NCBI GenBank assembly: GCA_947172415.1
Contig: OX359195.1
Location: forward strand, 7,495,001 to 7,559,000
Source: Chondrosia reniformis
Lineage: Eukaryota; Porifera; Demospongiae; Chondrillida; Chondrillidae
Reading direction: 5' to 3'
DNA: 64,000 nt
Below the pieces are notes generated by a model. The model saw only the letters and a list, made by a program, of their open reading frames with translations. It was not told the DNA's origin and searched no databases. Both the position numbers and the translations under genes were made by a program. Every line of letters begins with the position of its first letter. Position 1 is the first letter of the stretch. Shown here piece by piece: positions 19,341-46,150 of this stretch.

Positions 19341-20684
19341 TTAGATGGGTTCCTTGATAACTTTGATGTCTGTGTAGGAGACACCTCTATAAGTTCCCTT
19401 CACAGGATATTGAAGTGTGCTTCCATCTCTTGTGGTCAGCACCATGTCACCTTCGTATGGAATATCAATGCAGGACCGACCTGTAGTAATCTTGATTCTC
19501 TCTCTGCTCTCTGGAGGGATTGTGATGGGGATTTCCCACTCCCTTGTCTTAACCTCTATATGGTGTCTCTGGTAAGTGCCCTGGGCTGTTAGCTTGACAC
19601 TGTAGCCAATTTCCACTGTCAGCAACTCTGGCATTCCTGAAGACACTTTGAAATCACCTGCCATTTCTGCTCCGACACTTATAGACCATTCTGATTCCTC
19701 TGTCACCTCGTTTGATATTCTACGCACAACGGTGCTTTCATTTTTATTGCCACGATTGTCATACTCCAGGCTGTCAATCTCTTCAACAACCACCATTGCT
19801 TCTGCTGATGCAATAGTGGGATAGTGGACATTTTGTAGCATGGAGTTAGTGATGTTTTTTATGAAGATGAATCCCACAGCAAGAAGCTCATTTGCCTCAT
19901 CCGGATTCCTCAACAAGTGTGCAATGGCTCCGATACACAAACCAGAACCAACATCTACAGGATAAGTCTGTTTTTCATGATCCTTATCGGAAATCTTGGC
20001 AGCAAAAGATGAGCCTGATCTATTGGTGGAAAAGTTTATGGCTCCCAGACGCAATTTCCTCTGATTTGATTCGCCATTTCCTGAAAGCTGCATAGATGTG
20101 ATTGTTTCACCAGTTTGTAGTACATACTCATTATATTTGCCAACTGAAACTCCAAATTCTTCAGATTGACCATCACTTAACCAAATCTTGATGCAATTTA
20201 TTTGCTTCTTACCAACCCAAACTCCAATTTTTTGGACCAGCAATCCATCATGGCCACCTACTATGCGTTGAAAAGCCCCAGCATATTCAGTGTCACGGTC
20301 TCCTCCCATTCTCTGTTTACGTCCACCCACAAATTGAACCTTTTCATAAGGCTCTCTCTGACTACTGTTGCCGGAGGAGGACTCAGATCTTTCCCATGAG
20401 GAAGGAACTAGCTTCTTTTTAAAAAAGTCAAAGAGGCCTCGTGTAGCTTGAAACTTCTCTGAAGACACTCTCTTTTGCTGCACTGGTACATTTATAGTAG
20501 CTATGTCCAAACCAAATTCAAGTTGATTGTTTCCATATTCCTCTTCTTCAGTGGTGTTCTCGACACTTGTGGATTTGTGTTCGTCTTCCTGGTGAATCTC
20601 TTTCTTTATGAGATTAAAGCACTCAAGCTCCTCCTCTGACAGATCCAGCATTGTGTAGCTTGCCTCCTCACTATCCAACTCCAT
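19341..20684 (-). CDS. Natterin/aerolysin-like pore-forming protein with jacalin-like lectin domain
   Basis: A single reading frame of 447 residues that looks whole. Residues 1-110 are acidic and low in order, with no signal peptide. Residues about 135-275 resemble a jacalin-like beta-prism lectin (AGAFQRIVGGHDG, KIGVWVG, LRLGAINFSTNRSG, GSGLCIGAIAHLL). Residues about 285-445 resemble the aerolysin module: long Ser/Thr/Val/Glu strands around VTEESEWSISVG, then EWEIPITIPP. Animal proteins of this type are secreted or vesicle-associated defence or endolysosomal pore formers. Lectin binding and pore formation are inferred from the fold only. It lies tail-to-tail with CAND1, with 372 bases between the two stop codons. 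Confidence 0.75.
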   Translation of the reverse strand: MELDSEEASYTMLDLSEEELECFNLIKKEIHQEDEHKSTSVENTTEEEEYGNNQLEFGLDIATINVPVQQKRVSSEKFQATRGLFDFFKKKLVPSSWERSESSSGNSSQREPYEKVQFVGGRKQRMGGDRDTEYAGAFQRIVGGHDGLLVQKIGVWVGKKQINCIKIWLSDGQSEEFGVSVGKYNEYVLQTGETITSMQLSGNGESNQRKLRLGAINFSTNRSGSSFAAKISDKDHEKQTYPVDVGSGLCIGAIAHLLRNPDEANELLAVGFIFIKNITNSMLQNVHYPTIASAEAMVVVEEIDSLEYDNRGNKNESTVVRRISNEVTEESEWSISVGAEMAGDFKVSSGMPELLTVEIGYSVKLTAQGTYQRHHIEVKTREWEIPITIPPESRERIKITTGRSCIDIPYEGDMVLTTRDGSTLQYPVKGTYRGVSYTDIKVIKEPI

Positions 20685-21564
20685 TTGAGTGTCTCAATAC
20701 CTAATAAACTCAACTACCAGTTGTTCTATATATTTTGGCTTATATATATATATTAAACAATAGGATTTAACACATACTCAGTAAATATATATATATAATA
20801 CAGTACATAGATTAATAATTAATATACTATTCAACATATTGTATCAATGGAATCACACCTATTCTTAAGTTTTATATAGGAAATACTGATTGCATTAAAT
20901 ATTCATATAGCCTTAACATAGTATACCTTTCAATATGCATTTAGAATTCACTACTCTTGACTATATAGCTCTTTTATTTAATTATAGTATATTTGATTAT
21001 ATATACATGTTTCTTTGTAAATCATGCAAGGCATTAATTCATATATATACATGTACATCTGGAACTGGAAATATATAGGCTGGGCCTCTGATATAGCTTG
21101 TATACATACATAGAATAGAATCACCACTAATTAGCATGAATGGAGAAACTAATTACTTGCTTATATATATACATGTAAGATTGAGAGGAAGCTTCAAGCA
21201 TGTTTGTAGCATTAGTGTAGCATTAGTGTAGCATTAGTGTAGCATTTGTAGTTCAGTAGTAGAGCAGGTGGTCAAAATGTTCATTACCATCACTACTTCT
21301 CTTGTGTTTTTCCCTCTTCATGCTTATACATAGTTGTGGTTTGATTATCACTTTGATTATTCATCTATTACAATATGCAACATGCTACATTTTTTAAGTC
21401 AAACATCCTTATAAACATATACTAAAGTAACCATTATAGTCTGAACAGTGTCAATAGTTACAGCAATCTACATCTTCGATGTCTACTTGGTCTGGAAACA
21501 CTTTCAGGGAATGTTACAGTACTAACATTCCCTGTATCACATGAGAAATGGTCCATGGTAAACT
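20685..21564. other. AT-rich gap with short tandem repeat
   Basis: About 880 AT-rich bases with many TATATA runs. A 12-base repeat (gtagcattagtg) occurs about three times at 21209-21246. The end nearest 20685 should be the promoter of the pore-forming protein gene. No coding exon is supported, except a possible alternative last exon of the next gene near 21475-21582. Confidence 0.5.
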
Positions 21565-24356
21565 CTAATTCCCCAGCTTCCCCTGCACAATGTAATAAAG
21601 GATATATAGAATGGTTGACTAGTTTATACTATAAATTGTACCCCTAATTATGTGAGTATATGTGAACAAACTGTTCTAGTTTATGCTCAAATAAGAAGAT
21701 TGATTCAAAGAAACCTAAAGTCCCAAATAATCGGCAAACAGCTAGATTATTACATAATTTGTGTGCAATACATGTATATGTATTGCATGTACAGATACAT
21801 AGATGTATTTTATTATATGAAGCTATACCATTTTGCACTTCAGAAGGTACAGCAGTGCTGTTTTGGTCACTTTTTGCCAAAATAGGCTGTTCATACCCCT
21901 AATTGCAAGAATTTTGTTAAATGTATATCTGGTAGTATACACAAATGTAGGTATAGTATATACGTGCACGTACGTATGTATTGCATTAAACTTCTATATC
22001 TACAGTATATATACTAGCGGATTAGAAATGCAACTGTATAGAGGCTTACTTCGTTATTGCTGAGTCTGGAGGGTTTATTAACTCCAGGATAGGGTTCTGG
22101 CCTTGGGACATAACCTGGACCCACTAAACTAGATCTAGAACTAACAGTTCCACTTTCTTGAGCAGAAAAAGGAAGTCTTTCCTAAACAGGATGTCAAAAA
22201 GGTGTATAAGAATAACCATGCATACAGATATACGTAAATATACAACAGACATATAATAAGAATATTTGTATATATATACAGGTGACACATGTTAAAACAC
22301 AAATATATAATAATATTCTTATTACCTTAAAGTCCTCATTGTCATCACTCATGTCTGGTAGCAAACCATCTGGGTAACTCCCAACAATTGTAGGAAGCTC
22401 TGAAGAACAACGGCTGGAGGCACTTAGATTAGTGTGTTTCCTTTTTGCTCTATAGGATCCAGAGTGAGGTGTAATGGAACAGAAACTTCTTTCACTGCCT
22501 CTTCTACTTAGTCCTAATGAATTTTCAAAATCTGCCTTAAATTTGCAAAGGAACTTAATGGCATCTTTAATACTTTCTTCAATAAATCTGATACCCAAAT
22601 TTTCAAGAAGCTCCCTAATTGATTCTTCTTGGGACTGAGACTATACCAAGTAAAAGATGAACATAACACTTATTGTATATAGATAAATGTAAATCATTTA
22701 CGTACGTACCATGTTTCCTGTACTATAAAAAGGTACAAAAACCATTGGCAAATTTGAAAAGAAGCCAGGTGCTTTTAATTCATTCAGCCATTTTGTAATA
22801 ATGTAACTAGCTTGCTCATTTGTGACATCTGCCACTAGAATAACACCCATACAACGGTTTTCAGGAATTTGAAAATTTTGTAAGACCTAAATGTATATAT
22901 ACATAAGTACATAAGTACATATGTTATCTTTTTGTTTTGGATATCATATACGTATATATATTAACTTGCACTGGTTATACATATATGTATACTTCATAAT
23001 AATATGAGCTCACACTCTGAAATGTCCTTTTGGAATGCTTTAATCTCCTCAGAACATCTGTAATAAATTTTGTATATGATTGACCCACATACATGAACAA
23101 TCAAAATGATAATCAAATCATTTGCAAACATCAATCATGAAAAGGGAAAAACACCAAATAAACAATTGCTGGGAATCAGTACAAGTATATTACAGTGACA
23201 TACACACACACCATTGAAAGGGATATCAAATATGACTACAGGCAATTCATTCTGGAGAGGTGGTTTGTGTAGTATTTTGCAATAGGTAATATCTTCATCC
23301 TATCTGAGAGTCAAGGAAGGATAATAGATAAAACTTTTAAAATGTGATGGCTTTTAGAGGTCTAGTTTATTGATCTTATAAATTATATCAATAGATAGGA
23401 TTTAAGCTAGGATACATCTGGGTTGATATCTTCAAGAACATGTGTCCCATCTTTCAAAAACTTATTTAATAGTGTCGGCTGATTAATAGCATCTCCTAAC
23501 AGCACTATTGCTACAGGGGCTTGATTGATGCTAGCACAATCTTTCTCTATTCCTAAAAAAATGTAGAAAAAATTGAAGCACTAAAATAAAAATTGAGAAT
23601 TTGTTATATAGTACTGAAAAATAGATGATTTAACAGAGAGAATATTGCTATATATAAGAACTGCTGAACATGCTATTCTTGTACCTGACTGGCAAGTTAT
23701 AAAGGTTAAGTGGGAAAGGTTGCATTAATTATGCATGTATAATGGCGGCGTTCAGGAAGCTTTAGTTAACGAAGCTTTTCTGTCGCTATTTATAATGTTC
23801 AGGACACTTAAGCGTCCTCAATCGTTAGGATTAAGAATATATATATTAAAGCCCAACGATGCGGCCAAGTAGTTCGAGTTAATTCGGGGGCGGCAGCCCC
23901 ACGAGTTTTTAAACTCGAAATACTTGTTTAATAGGTTTGAATTAATTATCTTATTGTTTAAAGATTATAGTCAATGTTACATGGAAAATATATAGACTCA
24001 CTTTCGCTGAATATTGCACTGCCTCGGCTTGAAACCTCTTGCCTTTCTAACTTCCTTTCGTTGATGAGATCTGCAATATCTGAATGGTTAGTTATATTAG
24101 ACTTTTGTAATTCCTCCATGAATATGCTTATGGGACATTGGTTGTCGACTTTGGCAGATTTAACTAGCCTAATAAGTAGGGCTTCTGCTATATCTCGAGA
24201 CGGCTTTGAATTCTCCATAAACTTCAAATCGTCGTAATCGGGTTGAGATAAAACTCCACGAGAAAACATGCGAATAACAATATCAGGCACATGTAGCCGG
24301 TCTACTATGTCAGGGATAAGGTCTCGAAGCGCGTCTTTCGCAAGCCGGTCCTCCAT
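21565..24356 (-). CDS. CARD domain fused to a degenerate Ras-like GTPase fold
   Basis: Eight exons on minus: 24002-24356, 23416-23552, 23212-23299, 23014-23057, 22710-22886, 22326-22640, 22050-22181 and 21565-21582, all in frame, 421 residues. Exon 1 (residues 1-118) is a CARD-like six-helix death fold (RLHVPDIVIRMFSRGVLSQ, ending in IFMEELQKSN). Residues about 131-300 follow a small GTPase: VAIVLLGD at 132-139, LLNKFLKDG, VVIFD at 185-189, MGVILVADVTNE at 221-232, KWLNELK at 240-246, LPMVFV at 254-259, and LGIRFIEES at 282-290. Every nucleotide-binding motif is altered: GDAINQPT for GxxxxGKS/T, DIPF for DxxG, VPFYST for NKxD, EESIK for SAK. A Ser-rich tail follows. An in-frame Met lies at 24404. 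The last short exon has an alternative reading. Confidence 0.72.
23741..23930 (+). mobile_element. Short interspersed repeat, copy A, in intron 1 of the CARD-GTPase gene
   Basis: About 190 bases starting at aatggcggcgttcaggaag and ending near a cgagtttttaaactcg hairpin, over 90 percent identical to 32160-32349. It has no coding capacity. The matching copy sits inside an element with inverted ends, so it is probably a non-autonomous DNA transposon fragment. Confidence 0.7.
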
Positions 24357-24440
24357 TGTATAGACTTCAGATCGATCGGAATATTGCCATGAATACAATT
24401 TCACATAAATGGTTATCTCCCCAGCATGCAGATGATCAGC

Positions 24441-24460
24441 TAGTCTCGCGTAGCCAGACC
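24441..24460 (-). repeat. Dispersed 20-base motif, minus-strand copy
   Basis: Reverse complement reads ggtctggctacgcgagacta. It lies about 85 bases upstream of the CARD-GTPase start codon. Confidence 0.6.
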
Positions 24461-24520
24461 GTTATCTCGCCTCCATATTTACGTGGTGACGTCATATTTG
24501 CAATCATTTGTATATATAAA

Positions 24521-24890
24521 GTTAAATAAAAACATTCAAAAATGAAGTTAAAAGTAGGGATGGCACTATAACAGTGATTGGCACATCTAGAAAAAGTAAC
24601 GAAACAAGAAAGTGATCATCTGGTAAGGCTAACATTGCAGAAGTGGCATACTGAAACTTAACTATACACATCACTTCTATGTTTGGGCGCATCATGGATA
24701 TACTAGAAGTAGGGATCGATGCGCCCAAACATAGAAGTGATGTGTATAGTTAAGTTTCAGTATGCCACTTCTGCAATGTTAGCCTTACCAGATGATCACT
24801 TTCTTGTTTTGTTACTTTTTCTAGATGTGCCAATCACTGTTATAGTGCCATCCCTACTTTTAACTTCATTTTTGAATGTTTTTATTTAAC
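24521..24890. repeat. Long near-perfect inverted repeat with 173-base arms
   Basis: Left arm 24521-24693 and right arm 24718-24890 are reverse complements with only one mismatch seen (g/a near 24600 and 24812). A 24-base loop lies between. The arms hold no reading frame. A transcript would fold into a long hairpin. It could be a foldback element, a hairpin-RNA locus, or an assembly or cloning artefact. Confidence 0.9.
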
Positions 24891-25387
24891 TTGTATTGCC
24901 CCTTTTTTCTTGTTAATATTTGTTTTGAAAGTTTTCTTGGCGAAAACTCGAAATAAAGTAGCAGAATAGACGATATAATAGAGAGCTCTAAATTAAAAAA
25001 TGGCGTCCGAAAAGATCCCAAATTTGATAAGATGTTTTTCTACCGTTCTTTAACATTCAGTTTAGGATATTAAAGGGTCCATAATCGTTAAGAATACGAC
25101 TGTATATAGGCCCTGCAAAGCGACTAAGAAATTCGATCGCGGGTAACGGCAGTACCACAAATATTACTCATTCGGGTTACTTATTTTATATAGAGAGAAT
25201 TTGAAACTTAATTAAAAAATGGCGTTCAAAGAGGCCCTAAATTTGGCACTTTCAAAAGTAACACGCTTCGGTTGGAGCGCGTTGAAATCTAGGGTAGCCT
25301 ATTCCCTAGTTCGGAAACATTCATGACGATTTAGTATTTGTATGTACCTGCGTAAGTTCGCATGTTAGCGCTAGCTCATTTGAAAAA

Positions 25388-25433
25388 AGAAGAAGAAGAA
25401 GAAGAAGAAGAAGAAGAAGAAGAAGAAGAAGAA
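25388..25433 (+). repeat. (GAA)n microsatellite
   Basis: About fifteen uninterrupted GAA/AAG triplets. The surrounding 24891-25720 has no supported gene. It contains two related copies of a taaaaaatggcgt...ttaaagggtcc-type segment near 25000 and 25215. Confidence 0.9.
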
Positions 25434-25739
25434 AAAATGAGGAATTGCAGAATTTGGCCTATTTCGGTTTAACCACTTTGCCAAGGCTGTAGAGCATCGT
25501 AACATGTTTTGGCGTTTAGAAAAGCATGCAAAAACGACTGCAAACACACGAATGCAACTGAAAATCTGAACGTTGTTGATTTATGAGGTGTTAATTGATA
25601 ATACATTGAATAGGGCGGCCATGTTTTTTTCGGCCATCCCTACTTATAGAGTACTACCGTACTCTATGATTATGTCCAACGAGCAGAGTTGGTTAATTTG
25701 TAAATATTACATAGATATCAATTCTTACATGTAGAGGAA

Positions 25740-26260
25740 CATTACGGGTTTGTGCCCATTGGCCAAAGCCTACATCAATGCACATCCGTGCAACAGCCTT
25801 AAACCATGGTAGATGCACCTGGTGCCATATGATTCAGTCCTGCAGACAATTGCTCATCCCAACCCTCAATGAATCTGAGACAATATATGCAGACTCCCAG
25901 GTCTCAGAGCCAGCAACAACCCCCTGTACCACCGTCCTGACACGTCATCAGACAGGCCTGACTTGGTAGTGGTCTCAGGGAGAGACCTTCACATCATGGA
26001 ACTTACTGTTCCAGCCAACACCATTGAGAACCTGGAAGAAGCAAGACGTAGCAAGCAGGCCAAATACCAGCCCCTGCTTGCTGACCTGGAAGCTCATCCA
26101 CTCATCTGGTAGGTGTCCTATTCCACAATAAAAGTGGATTCGCTTGGCCACTACCCACTATCAGCTGTCCAAGCCCCGTGTGAATCTTCAGCATCCATCA
26201 CAAGGCGCCAAGCTAACAACATCTTGGCTCAAACATGCAAAGTGGCTGTAGGGTGCTCCC
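25740..26260 (+). mobile_element. Relic of a LINE-type retrotransposon, C-terminal region
   Basis: Broken frames carry RPDLVVVSG, IMELTVPANTIENLEEA and KQAKYQPLLADLE, the conserved block found downstream of reverse transcriptase in many invertebrate non-LTR elements. Stops interrupt it (for example just before 26110) and no reverse-transcriptase core is present. It is a truncated, decayed copy. Confidence 0.6.
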
Positions 26261-26783
26261 ACTGACTACATGTTCAGACCTCATCAGTGCAGCGAGTGGG
26301 ACAATCACAAACCTTTATACAGTTTATGTTAGCTGGTCATCCATGATTTATCATACTTTTTTTGACACCCATGTTATTGTTAACCCTATCACCCTCATAT
26401 TGTGTATCTGTGATCCAAGCCCATGTTCTCATGTTAGCTTGTGTCCAAGGCCTTAAGTTTTATTCTTCTGTACTGTCTTGCATATTTGCAATGGTTTCAA
26501 AAATAGACATCTATATTGTGCATATATAAATTATATCATATCTACAGACTATATACATACCAGTTACAGTGTGTCTATATGTATTATAAATTTCTATAGC
26601 AAAAAAGAGCATACAGCTAAATATGTTATCACATTTTCAAGATAAAGCCACATCAGATGTATCCTGAATCATGCGCTAGACTTCTCTCACTGGAAGGTGT
26701 ACATTCTGGTCTCATCTTGTGTAGGAGGGTGACACTAGACTAGTAGTACCGAGAGGATCCGATACACTCAACAATAATATATC

Positions 26784-27266
26784 CTACAATAATCGACTCA
26801 ATGCTGACTTCAATTTCTTTCCAAAATTAGCCTTTTTCATATTCAAAATGGCATTGAAAGTAAATATACACCACACTTCAAAGAGAATAATGCAAGCAAA
26901 GAAGCAGCCGGTAATAGCCAATCCGTTGTCCCGGGAGCCTGTCGCCAGGTAATGGGCCAGAACGACATCCAGCACCGTCTTGAACGTCACGGTAACGTAA
27001 GCAATTAGATATTTCACGGATCGTTTGCACACTAGCTTTGCGGAGCAGCACTTGGAGTCGTCAGGGTTGACCAGTTTCTTGATCATTGCAAATGTTATGA
27101 TAACATAGAGTCCCAAATCCAGCAGTAACTGAGGTATGAAGACCTCGTACCATTCCAAATCTATAATCCTCCTTGATTGAAGTACTATCAACACAAAATG
27201 AGGTACTACAGACACTAATACGTAGGAATACACCAGAAATAGGGTAAAATTATAACATAACGCCAT
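26784..27266 (-). CDS. Four-helix TMEM60/185/203-like membrane protein, copy 1
   Basis: An intronless frame of 160 residues with four hydrophobic segments. After helix 1 comes [18 protein letters not shown], the W..VF(I/V)P..D signature shared by TMEM60, TMEM185 and TMEM203. Helix 3 ([14 protein letters not shown]) also fits. Family members sit in the ER or endosomal membrane, with calcium or lipid roles proposed for some; no function is claimed here. It is a paralogue of 28631-29089. Its start codon is only 14 bases from that of PRDX4 on the other strand. Confidence 0.65.
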
Positions 27267-27280
27267 CTTATCTTAGATCG

Positions 27281-28042
27281 ATGCACCATATAAAAATGGC
27301 GGTCGTGCTACAGTCTGTGTTATCTTTCATTCTACTCGTGTTGTACGCGAATGCGCAAGAAATGTGCCAGAGGTACCCCGGGCTCTTGTTCCCACAGGAG
27401 ACTATTAGAGACGGAGAGCATGCTCTTCACTGGAGCAAAGCACAGATTTCTAAAGCAGCCCCCAACTTTACAGGAACAGCAGTCGTAGACGGAGAATTCC
27501 AAGAAATTTCTTTAAAAGACTTTCAGGGAAAGTATTTAGTGTTCTTTTTTTATCCTCTGGACTTTACGTTTGTGTGTCCAACTGAGATCCTAGCCTTCAG
27601 TGACAGAATTGAAGAGTTTGAGCAGAGCAACACTGCAGTAGTGGCCTGTTCAGTAGACTCCAAATACACTCACCTAGCATGGATCAACACGCCCAGGGAG
27701 AAGGGAGGACTGGGAAGTATCAAGATTCCACTCTTATCTGATTTAACAAAACAAATTTCCAAAGACTACGGTGTGCTACTGGAATCTGAAGGAGTGGCAC
27801 TGAGAGGACTGTTCATCATTGACAACAGAGGAGTGCTCCGACAGATAACTATGAATGACCTTGCAGTGGGCAGGTCAGTTGATGAAACTCTCCGCCTGGT
27901 CCAAGCGTTCCAGTATGCCGACAAGCAAGGAGAGGTGTGTCCATGTGGGTGGAAGCCTGGGGACGATACTATAATACCTAATCCAAAGGATTCACTAAAT
28001 TACTTTAAGAAGCAAACAGGAAAGTCAAAGATTGATCTCTAA
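27281..28042 (+). CDS. PRDX4: Secreted/ER typical 2-Cys peroxiredoxin (PRDX4)
   Basis: One exon, 253 residues. A hydrophobic signal peptide ([18 protein letters not shown]) comes first, then an N-terminal extension with a Cys as in PRDX4, then the thioredoxin fold. The peroxidatic Cys is in [13 protein letters not shown], and the catalytic Arg is in the expected region after it. The resolving Cys is in GEVCPCGW, where most family members have CPAGW, so an extra Cys is present. GGLG and the C-terminal YF helix (NYFKK) mark a form sensitive to overoxidation. PRDX4 reduces peroxide in the ER lumen and feeds disulfides to PDI proteins such as the PDIA6 encoded at 52 kb. Start may be the Met at 27281 or 27296. 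Confidence 0.93.
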
Positions 28043-39522: not shown

Positions 39523-39627
39523 TCCCAAGGAGGTCGATGAACGAAGCAAGAGGTATTCGTAGGACCCGAACACTGAAATTGGTCCATTGATATGCAAAGC
39601 CACAACTGAACAGTGGGGTGACAAAAA

Positions 39628-40482
39628 ATGGCTGCAGTTTACTTGCAACTTTGTATCCCTTGCATCCTGTTAATGATTTCGCCCTCGTGCGTGTTCTGTG
39701 ATCATGTTTGCTCTGCGATTCCGGAAGGCTTTGTGTCAATTGCCAACTACGATCCGTCTGTCGTATTGGAGATACGCTATGCGGGTTATCACAACTTCAT
39801 TGGCCGACCCATTCGTGGCTATGAGGAACCGCTTTGCATCTTGACTAGGCAAGCAGCTAAAGCTCTCAGTGCGGCGCAGAAGGAATTCCAGAGCATGGGG
39901 TATTCTATTAAAGCATACGATTGTTATAGACCACAAAGAGCCGTTGATAATTTCGTGGAATGGTCGAACGACCCTACCGATAACCTGACAAAAACAGAGT
40001 TCTATCCCACTCTAGACAAGAGTGTGCTATTTCAACTCGGTTATATAGCCGAGAGATCAGGACACTCGAGAGGCTCGACGTTGGATCTTACCATTATACC
40101 AGTGCCAGCTCTCCCTGAACCAGAGTACGTGCCCGGAATGGAACTGTATCCGTGCACTAACTCCGTACCCAATAGATTTAACGATACCAGTATTGACATG
40201 GGGACCGGCTATGACTGCTTTGATCCACTAGCTAACACTAACAATACTGATGTGGGGATGATGCAAAGGGACAATCGCATGATGCTAATGGATGTCATGA
40301 CTAGAAACAACTTCACCAACTATTGGGCAGAATGGTGGCACTACACACTTGATAATGAGCCTTATTTAGACATGTACTTTGATTTTCCGGTGCAATGCCA
40401 AGAGTCCACTGCTCGTGTAGTTTATCTGAACCTTTTGCTTCTGTTAGCTGCTGTATGTTGCAGCATGTACCTTTTTATTTAA
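39628..40482 (+). CDS. VanX-type D-Ala-D-Ala dipeptidase (peptidase M15D), copy 1
   Basis: Intronless, 284 residues. A signal peptide (about residues 1-24) is followed by a complete M15D domain: YDCYRPQRA with the catalytic-site Arg, GHSRGSTLDLT with the zinc-binding His and Asp, and EWWHYT with the catalytic Glu and the last zinc His. VanX enzymes split D-Ala-D-Ala, a cell-wall precursor dipeptide, and are overwhelmingly bacterial. The C-terminus (VYLNLLLLLAAVCCSMYLFI) is hydrophobic and fits a GPI-anchor signal or membrane tail, absent from copies 2 and 3. The secretion signal and spliced neighbours argue for a transferred gene adapted to the animal. A role in digesting or disarming bacteria is inferred. 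Confidence 0.85.
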   Translation: MAAVYLQLCIPCILLMISPSCVFCDHVCSAIPEGFVSIANYDPSVVLEIRYAGYHNFIGRPIRGYEEPLCILTRQAAKALSAAQKEFQSMGYSIKAYDCYRPQRAVDNFVEWSNDPTDNLTKTEFYPTLDKSVLFQLGYIAERSGHSRGSTLDLTIIPVPALPEPEYVPGMELYPCTNSVPNRFNDTSIDMGTGYDCFDPLANTNNTDVGMMQRDNRMMLMDVMTRNNFTNYWAEWWHYTLDNEPYLDMYFDFPVQCQESTARVVYLNLLLLLAAVCCSMYLFI

Positions 40483-41208: not shown

Positions 41209-41422
41209 ATCACTTTTCAGAAGATGTTTCACCAATGCAACATGTACCTTTTTTATTTATGAATTGTAAAATGTGCAATCTTCATCGTTTTTTTTTATTG
41301 GCATATACTGAATCAGTTCGATGTTTACTCAATTCCAGAAATGTTATATGCAAATTGATGATCGTGACAAGGTGTTAAATGTTAATTATGATGCACCCTT
41401 AGTGGGGCGTAACTGTAAAAAT

Positions 41423-43632
41423 ATGGCTCAGCCTTCTACCCCAAGAGACATTATCAGAGATTGTTATGACCAGTTAATATCGGATTTAAACGTAGCCATT
41501 CTTCAACCAGTATTACTGTCAAAGAATTTAATAACCCAAAGTTTGAAACAGAAAATAATGGCCAACGACACTGATGAGGAACAGAATACAGTACTTGTTG
41601 ACCATATTATGAAAGTAGCAACCTGGGAGAAACTCGAAGCGTTCGTTCAGACGTTACAAGATAAGGGAACACCACCCTATGATAAAATGAAAAAGCTAGC
41701 TCAATTGATAAAAAGTAAAATTCCTGATGACATCTCAGAAGATGATCATATCAGAAAATCTGTAAGTCTATTATGCAAAGCTTAGACAGGCTAGGCTATG
41801 TATGTGTATACTATTATGGCTAGGCTATGTATGTGTATACTATTATGGCTAGGCTATGTATGTGTATACTATTATGGCTAGGCTATGTATGTGTATACTA
41901 TTATGGCTAGGCTATGTATGTGTATACTATTATGGCTAGGCTATGTATGTGTATACTATTATGGCTAGGCTATGTATGTGTATACTATTATGGCTAGGCT
42001 ATGTATGTGTATACTATTATGGCTAGGCTCAAGACAAGACACTATATAGCATACATTTAAAATAGGAATGTATTTAATTGAATGTAGCTTACCCTGCTTA
42101 ATTGTATGTCTAATTAAAATTAGTGAATAGATCAGTTACTTTTTATTTCTTTAGTCCCAGTATAATCCAAAAGAACAATCAAAGCTTCAAACAGAAAACC
42201 AGGAGCTTCAGAGGGAGGTGAAGCATCTGAAAAAGGTCAATAATCAGTCTCACTGTTATTCTACCCCTTTCATTTCATATTAATTTTCATAACTGAGCTG
42301 ATGTCGCAATAATCAGCATCTTTAAATTCTCGGTATATACATACCAGACCAAACCATTGTTCAACTCTTTACATTCTACTATTTTTAATCTTCTAGGTAA
42401 TCCTTAAACTGTCTCCTTGGCAACCATTACCTGCCCTACCAAGAAAAGCTGCCTGTCTCTCAGTTGTGGAGACTAACGGAAGCATATACATCGGTGGTGG
42501 CTTTACGGGTAGAAGATTTACTTATTACAGCTTTTGCAAGGATATTCTTGGCCGTACATCTTTACCTTTGATATTCAGACTTTGCCCAGATTCTTACAAA
42601 TGGATAGCTCTACCCTCTAGTCCCTCTGTAGTGATCCATTTTGGTTTAGCTTCTGTGGCCCATAAGATCTACCAGGTGGGAGGGGAATATTTAGAAGAAT
42701 CTGACCATCACAAAATAGGTGTACCATCAAATATGGTTATGGTCTATGATACAGAAGAGGGGAAATGGGTGGATGATCTACCCTCCCTTCATTTTTCTCG
42801 CTCTCTACCTTCAGTTGCTGCCACCCAAACTCATTTGATTGTTGCAGGTGGTGTTGATGCAAAACAGAAGCCAATTGCTTCCATTGAGATTTTCGATTTA
42901 GTTTCTAAGAATAATAGTTGGTTGGTTCGAGAAGGAGTCCCACTAGAGTTGTGCTATCCCCAAATTATAATCATTGATGGCATTCTCTACTGGGGAGCTG
43001 ACAGAGCTAGTGGACTTCACTTTAAAATTCTTCAGCATGCTACTGATGAGCTTAATCAGAATCAGTTTGATGTTTACTCAATTCCGGTGGATAATTTACT
43101 ACAGGATTCGACAGGGAGAGTAAAAATTCTTTCTAAAGCCTGGAGTAAACTCCCATCACTGCCAACTTGTGGATCAGCCCTGGTTGACCTCGAAGGTTCA
43201 GTGCTCTTAGTTGGTGGGAGAGACAAGAAGGGGAAGAGTAGTAATTTTTGTTATAGTTATGACAAGGAAGAGGATACTTGGGAGGTCGCAAAGGTGCATA
43301 AGCCAGATCGAATCCCACTTACATCAAATTGCGTTAGCCCTGCTGCCATCCACTCACAGAATAAGTTGTACCTCTTTGGTGGTATTGTATGGTCTGAATG
43401 GATGCTCATAAAAATAGTCCTAACATTGATCTCCCTTGTTTTAATTGCTCTTTGTGTTATGGCATATGGCATTTATGTAAATCAATCCATTATTATCAAA
43501 GGAGGATTTTATTTGTTTTGGGGGGCTTTTCTATGTATTGGTATGTATTGCTTGGAAAAGTGTTTAAGACTACCCAAACTTATTAATGCTGTAATTATTC
43601 GCTCTTCTCATGTAGTATTTCTTAACAAGTGA
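41423..43632 (+). CDS. CARD-coiled coil-Kelch protein with C-terminal membrane segments
   Basis: Three exons: 41423-41761, 42155-42235 and 42397-43632, all phase 0, 551 residues. Exon 1 is a CARD/death-fold-like helical domain (IIRDCYDQLISDLNVAIL, VDHIMKV, FVQTLQDKG). Exon 2 is a short coiled coil rich in Gln, Glu and Lys. Exon 3 has about five or six Kelch blades with GG pairs (IYIGGGF, IYQVGGE, LIVAGGV, VLLVGGR, LYLFGGI). Two hydrophobic segments lie near residues 475-530. The order suggests a membrane-anchored adaptor that links a Kelch ligand-binding propeller to CARD signalling; this is inference. An upstream in-frame Met at 41321 exists but lies in duplicated histone-flank DNA. It resembles BTB-Kelch proteins only in the propeller. 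Confidence 0.72.
41790..42021 (+). repeat. 29-base minisatellite in intron 1 of the CARD-Kelch gene
   Basis: Eight essentially identical copies of gctaggctatgtatgtgtat plus actattatg. Confidence 0.97.
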
Positions 43633-43739
43633 TGCAAATGTGTACTATTAAGAAACCTTTTTTATTGTAATGTTTTTATTTGAAATAAGTAGTGCAGTGA
43701 TGATGACACAATTGCAGCCATGACGTCAGACTTTTAAAA

Positions 43740-44501
43740 ATGTCGAAGCTCCAAATTGTGTTCCATCTCCTCGGAGTATTATCTCTTAGCTGTTCCCTCT
43801 GTCCGGCCATACCGAAAGGATTCGTGTCAATAGCCGACTATGATCCCACAATAATTCACGAGATACGATATGGAGGGTTTCACAACTTTGTAGGTCGAAT
43901 CATACGAGGCTACGACGAACCGCTTTGCATCTTAACCGAACAAGCCGCCCGAGCCCTCAGTGCAGCGCAGAAGGAGTTTATGAGCATGAAGCCTCCCTAT
44001 TCTATCAAAGTGTACGACTGTTACAGGCCGCAGATGGCAGTAGACGACTTTGTGGAGTGGGCCAAGGATTTAAACGACACCAAAATGAAAGAAGAGTTCT
44101 ATCCTTATCTTAATAAAAGCGTCCTCTTTCCACGTGGCTACATAGCAGAGAAGTCGGGTCATTCGAGGGGGTCTACATCTGACCTCACCATAGTACCCTG
44201 GCCTCCAGAACCTGAACCTGGTTACTACCAAGGCATGAAGCTGCTTCCATGTACTAACCGGCTACCATTCCGATATCCTGACAACAGTATTGATATGGGA
44301 ACTGGATTTGACTGCTTTGATGAGCTAGCACACACCAACAACACCAACATCACTACAAAAGAAAAGGAAAATCGAATGCTGCTTAAGAAGACTTTGACAA
44401 AGCATAATTTCACAAACTATTGGGCAGAATGGTGGCATTACACACTTAACAATGAACCGTTTCCAAACACTTATTTTAACTTTTCAATAAAGTGCAAATA
44501 G
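43740..44501 (+). CDS. VanX-type D-Ala-D-Ala dipeptidase, copy 2
   Basis: Intronless, 253 residues. It has a signal peptide (about 1-22) and all active-site blocks: YDCYRPQMA, GHSRGSTSDLT and EWWHYT. It lacks the hydrophobic tail of copy 1, so it should be a soluble secreted enzyme. Nearly identical to copy 3 and about 60 percent identical to copy 1. It begins 107 bases after the CARD-Kelch stop. A TGACGTCA site at 43721-43728 lies just before the start codon. Confidence 0.85.
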   Translation: MSKLQIVFHLLGVLSLSCSLCPAIPKGFVSIADYDPTIIHEIRYGGFHNFVGRIIRGYDEPLCILTEQAARALSAAQKEFMSMKPPYSIKVYDCYRPQMAVDDFVEWAKDLNDTKMKEEFYPYLNKSVLFPRGYIAEKSGHSRGSTSDLTIVPWPPEPEPGYYQGMKLLPCTNRLPFRYPDNSIDMGTGFDCFDELAHTNNTNITTKEKENRMLLKKTLTKHNFTNYWAEWWHYTLNNEPFPNTYFNFSIKCK

Positions 44502-45388
44502 CATGTACAAGCCGTTACTAAGACAGTAGTGGCAATGCAGAGAGTGACTAAGTATGAAGTTGTACAATAAATGTGGATTTATTAACATTATGATGAATTC
44601 TTTTAAAGGGAAGGTACCTTTCCATATAGTTTTCCTGTGAAATCTATAATATATAACCAGATTGTGATAGAAATATAACCACTAGAGAATCACCTAATTT
44701 GTTATTTATAGTGTAAACTAGATGATCAGACTCATATTTAAGAATAAATTAATATCTCTCTTCTCTGTGTAATGTTTTATAAGTTAGAACATAAAGGAGT
44801 CAAAACTGAGGAAGTACTATGATCACAATAAACAGTCAGTTGTAGAGTGGAATAATTGCTTAATACCCCATGGTGTGAAAGTATAAATCCATGGTTCTAA
44901 CTGTAGCTGGGGGTTTCCCAATGGAAAGTACCTAATTATAACCTAATCATCCAATATCAAAAAATTGAAATTACTTCATTGTGACTTCATTGATCATGAC
45001 CTCCCACAGTCTGCACTAACACTTTGTTTATTGATTAGGTTATGAAAACTTTGGCTGCGTACCTGTTTTACTGGCAAAAGTTTTCAAGATGTGGCTCTCT
45101 GTCTTGCATTCACTCATGCTATAATAGAAGTGTAGTTTATAGTGCATGTATTAGATTATTCATGTATATTAAAGTATAGATAGTCTATACCCTCAAATCC
45201 CTTCATTTCTATATATACGAGATGTATCAATTCATCCAGCTACCATCAAAACCATGTTCATTTTTGGCTGGTGTTGGCGTTGTGTATTAAGCAATAAGCT
45301 ACTTGCTTCCACTGAAGAAATATATACACGCAGATAAATGGCCCAACTTGAAACGTAATACATGCTTATGATGCCATCTTGATTAAAA
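44502..45388. other. Gap between VanX copies 2 and 3
   Basis: About 890 AT-rich bases. An AATAAA at 44567-44572 is a likely polyadenylation signal for copy 2. No gene and no match between the flanks of the two copies are seen. Confidence 0.55.
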
Positions 45389-46150
45389 ATGTCGAAGCTC
45401 CAAATTGTGTTCCATCTCCTCGGAGTATTATCCCTTAGCTGTTCCCTCTGTCCTGCCATACCGAAAGGATTCGTATCTATAGCTGACTATGATCCCACAA
45501 TAATTCACGAGATACGATATGGAGGGTTTCACAACTTTGTAGGTCGAATCATACGAGGCTACGACGAACCGCTTTGCATCTTAACCGAACAAGCCGCCCG
45601 AGCCCTCAGTGCAGCGCAGAAGGAGTTTATGAGCATGAAGCCTCCCTATTCTATCAAAGTGTACGACTGTTACAGACCGCAGATGGCAGTAGACGACTTT
45701 GTGGAGTGGGCCAAGGATTTAAACGACACCAAAATGAAAGAAGAGTTCTATCCTTATCTTAATAAAAGCGTCCTCTTTCCACGTGGCTACATAGCAGAGA
45801 AGTCAGGTCATTCGAGAGGGTCTACGTCTGACCTCACCATAGTACCCTGGCCTCCAGAACCTGAACCTGGTTACTACCAAGGCATGAAGCTGCTTCCATG
45901 TACTAACCGGCTACCACTTTGCTACCCTGACAACAGTATTGATATGGGAACTGGATTTGACTATTTTGATGAGCATTCGCACACCAACAACACCAACATC
46001 ACATTAAAACAAATTTCTAACCGAATGCTGCTTAAGAAGACGTTGACAAAGCATAATTTCACAAACTATTGGGCAGAATGGTGGCATTATACACTTAACA
46101 ATGAATCATTTCCAAACACTTATTTTAACTTTTCAATAAAGTGCAAATAA
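45389..46150 (+). CDS. VanX-type D-Ala-D-Ala dipeptidase, copy 3
   Basis: Intronless, 253 residues, same length as copy 2 and about 94 percent identical. It has all catalytic blocks. Most changes fall in residues 195-225 (PLCYPDNS, DYFDEHSH, ITLKQISN against PFRYPDNS, DCFDELAH, ITTKEKEN in copy 2). One Cys lost in FDYF and one gained in LCYP suggest a changed disulfide. DNA identity stops at the start and stop codons. Confidence 0.85.
   Translation: MSKLQIVFHLLGVLSLSCSLCPAIPKGFVSIADYDPTIIHEIRYGGFHNFVGRIIRGYDEPLCILTEQAARALSAAQKEFMSMKPPYSIKVYDCYRPQMAVDDFVEWAKDLNDTKMKEEFYPYLNKSVLFPRGYIAEKSGHSRGSTSDLTIVPWPPEPEPGYYQGMKLLPCTNRLPLCYPDNSIDMGTGFDYFDEHSHTNNTNITLKQISNRMLLKKTLTKHNFTNYWAEWWHYTLNNESFPNTYFNFSIKCK

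Follow-up and report, generated by a model that had tools for sequence, protein, structure and literature searches.

A sponge gene model predicted to join a CARD to a Rab-like domain with degraded nucleotide-binding motifs

In a 64,000-nucleotide stretch of the Chondrosia reniformis genome (contig OX359195.1, positions 7,495,001 to 7,559,000; hereafter the window), we analyzed a gene model on the minus strand at positions 21565-24356. The model has eight exons and seven GT..AG introns with fitting phases, and it encodes 421 amino acids followed by TAG; the exon joins proposed in the initial annotation, which was made from the sequence alone, were reproduced. We conclude that this gene probably encodes a CARD adaptor, in which the CARD precedes a nonswitching pseudoGTPase domain used for docking, with a tail rich in Ser behind it. 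We infer from the sequence that the gene is transcribed and spliced as modeled and that its product serves as a scaffold.

Exon 1 was predicted to form a six-helix CARD-type bundle, and two structure models matched mostly CARDs. In the second model, the helices span residues 2-17, 23-32, 38-50, 53-66, 75-85, and 89-115. Eight CARD stretches encoded elsewhere in this genome were 14-28% identical to exon 1. The Pfam CARD family matched it with an expectation value (E) of 0.0022 and 18.4 bits, below the cut-off of 23.9 bits. Together, the structure models and this comparison with the sponge's other CARDs support the assignment of exon 1 to this fold, as had been proposed.

The region downstream of the CARD resembles Rab proteins. 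When residues 119-315 were compared with PDB, the top match was Rab27A (E 1.6e-4, the sole row below 0.001), and the best 60 of 91 matches comprised 59 Rab entries and 1 glycosyltransferase. The reversed sequence, used as a control, gave 0 matches. In Pfam, Ras was the top family, with E 0.016 for the domain and E 0.0043 for residues 209-309. The two families named in the initial annotation were retrieved, CARD for exon 1 and Ras as the best Pfam family for the domain, each below its cut-off. The Ras E value was only about two- to fourfold better than that of the next row; MinC_N, MHC_I_3, and Retrotran_gag_4 gave weak rows within a few-fold of it, which we took as chance because the PDB search and the shuffles described below favor Rab. 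Nothing was matched by the whole domain in NCBIfam. A small-GTPase profile, built from 11 small GTPases of the same genome and 5 others, scored the domain at 10.7 bits, while the best shuffled sequence reached 7.4 bits (2000 made, 1443 reported). With hhalign, the score was 35.4 (probability 67%), compared with 22.5 for the best of 200 shuffles; a forced global alignment scored 26.5 (probability 39%).

Shuffling separate parts located this similarity. When residues 209-318 were shuffled, none of 250 shuffles reached the observed global score of the domain. In the piecewise test, 3 of 200 shuffles scored as well as exon 5 and 6 of 200 as well as exon 2, while residues 268-320 on their own were equaled by 47 of 200. 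The counts for the two negative controls were 166/200 (exon 1) and 184/200 (the tail). Descent of residues 209-318 from small GTPases is well supported by these comparisons. A complete GTPase fold across residues 119-318 is likely, and we put it no higher because residues 119-208 are weakly supported; likewise, the assignment of strand 1 and the P-loop is the best available alignment and weakly supported. The initial annotation had traced a GTPase over its full length, starting with strand 1 and ending with the final helix: the similarity was significant for residues 209-318 and borderline for residues 119-208, which match no GTPase alone.

The P-loop Lys and the NKxD motif of small GTPases hold guanine nucleotide. 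At the aligned places of the sponge domain, the P-loop Lys-Ser/Thr, DxxG, and NKxD were all found to be lost, as had been noted before. Instead of GxxxxGK[S/T], G1 reads GDAINQPT (residues 138-145), and neither the gapless nor the gapped register places a Lys there. G3 is changed from WDTAGQ to FDIPFN (188-193), with its aligned Asp kept in register, and G4 ([NT]KxD) falls on FYST inside VPFYST (259-264). For G5, the earlier claim that SAK is missing was correct in that the motif is changed and overstated in that SIK differs by one residue (ETSAK to EESIK, 288-292). The Rab/Ras-like stretches VILVADVTNE (223-232), KWLNEL (240-245), and LGIRFIEES (282-290) lie where they had been placed. Since the P-loop Lys and NKxD are lost, the Rab-like domain is predicted not to bind guanine nucleotide.

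Other candidates for the middle domain, a caspase or another alpha/beta fold, were considered in view of the CARD and rejected. Ras ranked first in Pfam, and neither caspase, TIR, NACHT, nor AIG1 appeared at E 10, a negative result limited by the HMMER filters, which discard most matches above about 0.1. An AIG1 domain with a P-loop was not found either, there being no AIG1 row at this threshold and no P-loop. Furthermore, the six frames of 20700-27300 contained no overlooked exon with a canonical P-loop.

Codon usage, modeled on nine long open reading frames of the window, favored the frame of the gene model in exons 1-7. Exon 8, with five codons and a stop, is too short for this test, and exon 4 scored 7.6 bits in another frame versus +1.2 bits in its own. 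All seven introns had negative scores in every frame, which is partly by construction because the background was drawn from the same introns and stops were penalized. Exons had a G+C content of 39%, compared with 30% for the introns. Weak splice sites are the intron 2 donor (GTATCC) and the acceptor ahead of exon 3 (GATAG). Among the final 103 residues of the protein, 19 are Ser, and the part of this tail encoded by exon 7 matched no Pfam family.

Several observations weigh against a CARD adaptor with a pseudoGTPase domain, and each fits another explanation. It is unlikely, though conceivable, that the GTPase is partial and that only the Rab-like segment from strand 4 to strand 6/helix 5 was kept. 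Residues 119-208 would then fold otherwise or form a sheet that has diverged or become shorter; the protein would still be read as a CARD adaptor, and the term pseudoGTPase would be wrong. Indeed, these residues (exons 2-4) retrieved no GTPase from PDB, Pfam, or NCBIfam when searched alone, and exon 2 searched singly in PDB retrieved none; 35 of 200 shuffles equaled exons 2-4 in the piecewise test, and when these residues were shuffled, 10 of 250 shuffles reached the observed global score of the domain, making the first half borderline. However, this also means that in the whole-domain alignment the real first half beat 240 of 250 of its shuffles, with strand 1, the place of the P-loop, and the G3 Asp all in register.

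An erroneous joining of two genes, a CARD-only protein and a separate gene consisting of exons 2-8, appears improbable to us. In this case, exon 1 would read on to a stop 14 codons beyond its donor. A CARD-only product could be made in this way because the frame of exon 1 is open past the donor (open reading frame 23958-24461), and a dispersed repeat lies inside intron 1. At other genomic positions, this repeat has at least 40 near-full-length copies with 91-99% identity (44 rows in addition to its own, including 4 partial ones; with 40 of 1529 candidates scored, the count is a lower bound). The donor GTGAGT of exon 1, the T-rich acceptor of exon 2, and the fitting frames nevertheless argue for the junction. 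Moreover, the model lacks Met between residues 118 and 221, and exons 2-8 alone would therefore need another first coding exon. We give still less credence to a decaying gene, that is, a former CARD-GTPase whose unused second domain drifts. Degraded G motifs would be expected of it, and no relative showing conservation was found in the same genome or, by word search, in a set of 5.8 billion proteins; yet the frame is open across seven introns, the codon usage of exons 1-7 is coding-like, and the stretches between the motifs are still Rab-like.

In the protein set, which includes the NCBI and UniRef eukaryotes, 7643 and 556 candidates shared words with the query and none was a relative at E 10; distant relatives may be missed because the search requires exact 5-residue words. 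The C. reniformis genome is reported to have 117.37 Mb in 14 chromosomes plus the mitochondrion, with RNA-seq and an Ensembl gene set (PMC12181767). In our searches of this genome (117,379,552 bases, 15 contigs), there was no paralogue: besides the gene's own exons, two matches at E of about 0.7 were obtained, one of them a Rab6-like gene (C13).

The same genome contains at least 72 CARD matches at E 0.1, at least 19 caspase-domain matches, and at least 101 NACHT matches, all counted at the exon level, and one 453-residue open frame (C2) with both CARD and caspase matches. Because such matches are numerous, partners for a CARD adaptor plausibly exist in the sponge. No Ras match (best 104 of 151) was located within 8 kb downstream of the 72 CARD matches on the same strand. 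For AIG1, four CARD matches gave five same-strand CARD-to-AIG1 pairs at distances of up to 8 kb, where 0.08 would be expected by chance placement. At L062 (G000:C4:661501-671000), L063, and L064, the AIG1 exons follow the CARD exons 0.9-6.8 kb downstream. In the one pair read by hand, the direct splice meets a stop, and for this reason we do not claim a CARD-AIG1 fusion in this genome.

If the gene is a CARD adaptor with a pseudoGTPase domain, its N-terminal CARD would enter homotypic assemblies with other sponge CARD proteins, e.g., CARD-caspases and CARD-bearing NLRs. The Rab/Ras-derived middle part, whose G1, G3, and G4 lack the nucleotide-holding residues, would not switch. It may instead offer a fixed protein-docking or dimerizing surface, as in p190RhoGAP and AAGAB, and connect the CARD assembly with a partner in membranes or trafficking, or with another molecule of the same protein. 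The tail, about 100 residues long and rich in Ser, could act as a disordered, phosphorylatable regulatory segment. More tentatively, and on the basis of one gene in one sponge, the protein might represent a class of death-fold adaptors in which a nonswitching Rab-like platform replaces the regulated GTPase switch that accompanies death folds elsewhere (AIG1, AP-GTPase) and links a CARD to Rab-effector or trafficking partners without a nucleotide cycle; we consider this possible rather than probable. A CARD coupled to a nonswitching Rab-like domain would imply that animal death-fold signaling adopted GTPase folds as scaffolds besides switches, here in a genome with numerous CARD and NACHT matches.

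Table 1. Exons of the gene model, with predicted domain assignments, and other features of the window
Feature	Position	Strand	Description
Exon 1	24356-24002	-	Residues 1-118; predicted CARD-type death fold; donor GTGAGT; coding score +30.7 bits
Exon 2	23552-23416	-	Residues 119-164; from global alignment, predicted to hold strand 1 plus the degenerate P-loop GDAINQPT (138-145)
Exon 3	23299-23212	-	Residues 165-193; predicted strands 2-3, degenerate G3 FDIPFN (188-193); +3.9 bits
Exon 4	23057-23014	-	Residues 194-208; predicted switch II/helix 2 region; +1.2 bits, weakest internal exon
Exon 5	22886-22710	-	Residues 209-267; strand 4 (VILVADVTNE), helix 3 (KWLNEL), strand 5, degenerate G4 VPFYST (259-264)
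Exon 6	22640-22326	-	Residues 268-372; helix 4, strand 6, near-G5 LGIRFIEESIK; GTPase-like part up to about residue 318 (22488), Ser-rich tail after; +32.1 bits
Exon 7	22181-22050	-	Residues 373-416; tail; +14.4 bits
Exon 8	21582-21565	-	Residues 417-421 and stop TAG
Dispersed repeat	23741-23930	.	Within intron 1
Inverted repeat	24519-24693 / 24718-24892		175-base arms, 99% complementary, 24 bases between
Lectin-like frame	19341-20693	-	450-codon open frame; jacalin-like lectin domain (Pfam E 6e-8)
Second CARD	41312-41785	+	157-codon open frame; Pfam E 2.1e-6, above cut-off
Peptidase_M15 frame 1	39622-40482	+	D-Ala-D-Ala dipeptidase
Peptidase_M15 frame 2	43707-44501	+	D-Ala-D-Ala dipeptidase
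Peptidase_M15 frame 3	45383-46150	+	D-Ala-D-Ala dipeptidase

Other features of the window are listed in Table 1. The inverted repeat begins 163 bases upstream of its ATG. The adjoining lectin-like frame also matches aerolysin weakly (E 0.02, short of the cut-off), and we take it to resemble natterin-like proteins. The window also contains a second CARD frame. The three Peptidase_M15 frames lie within 7 kb in this animal genome, the second and third are very alike by eye, and a bacterial origin of these frames is possible.

To our knowledge, neither p190RhoGAP nor AAGAB contains a CARD. The Pfam family of AAGAB itself was absent from the Pfam rows listed for the sponge protein. PseudoGTPases have been called an emerging class, and p190RhoGAP has two such domains, pG1 and pG2 (PMC5593906). 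As in p190RhoGAP, the sponge protein has a GTPase-like domain with degraded G motifs within a larger signaling protein, and it would fall into class (i), without nucleotide binding, as predicted here from sequence (PMC5593906). The fold and the lack of binding were shown for pG1 by crystal structures and assays (PMC5593906), whereas for the sponge domain they are predicted. In AAGAB, too, a GTPase-like domain engages another protein, AP2 sigma2, which belongs to the AP2 adaptor complex (PMC12429027). Both proteins set a precedent for a GTPase-like domain in which no switch has been demonstrated (PMC5593906, PMC12429027).

Our literature searches did not retrieve a CARD with a Rab-like pseudoGTPase, and the sole match pairing pseudoGTPases with caspase recruitment was a review of how inflammasomes bind ATP. 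The earlier statement that this domain order is undescribed in animal proteins was not contradicted by the protein and literature searches, although it has to be qualified by a CARD with AIG1 in a snail. In Biomphalaria glabrata, a DD-CARD is joined to a GTPase in one invertebrate protein; however, the snail protein has AIG1/GIMAP and a coiled coil, while the sponge protein is Rab-like with no AIG1 match (PMC7053062). DAPK similarly combines an AP-GTPase of the Ras-like clade with a death fold in an animal cell-death protein, but it is a kinase with another GTPase type, a C-terminal death domain, and a different domain order (PMC8195603, PMC3726526). In summary, the joining of a CARD to a GTPase is already known from the snail CARD-AIG1 protein (PMC7053062), and the sponge gene would add a Rab-like version.
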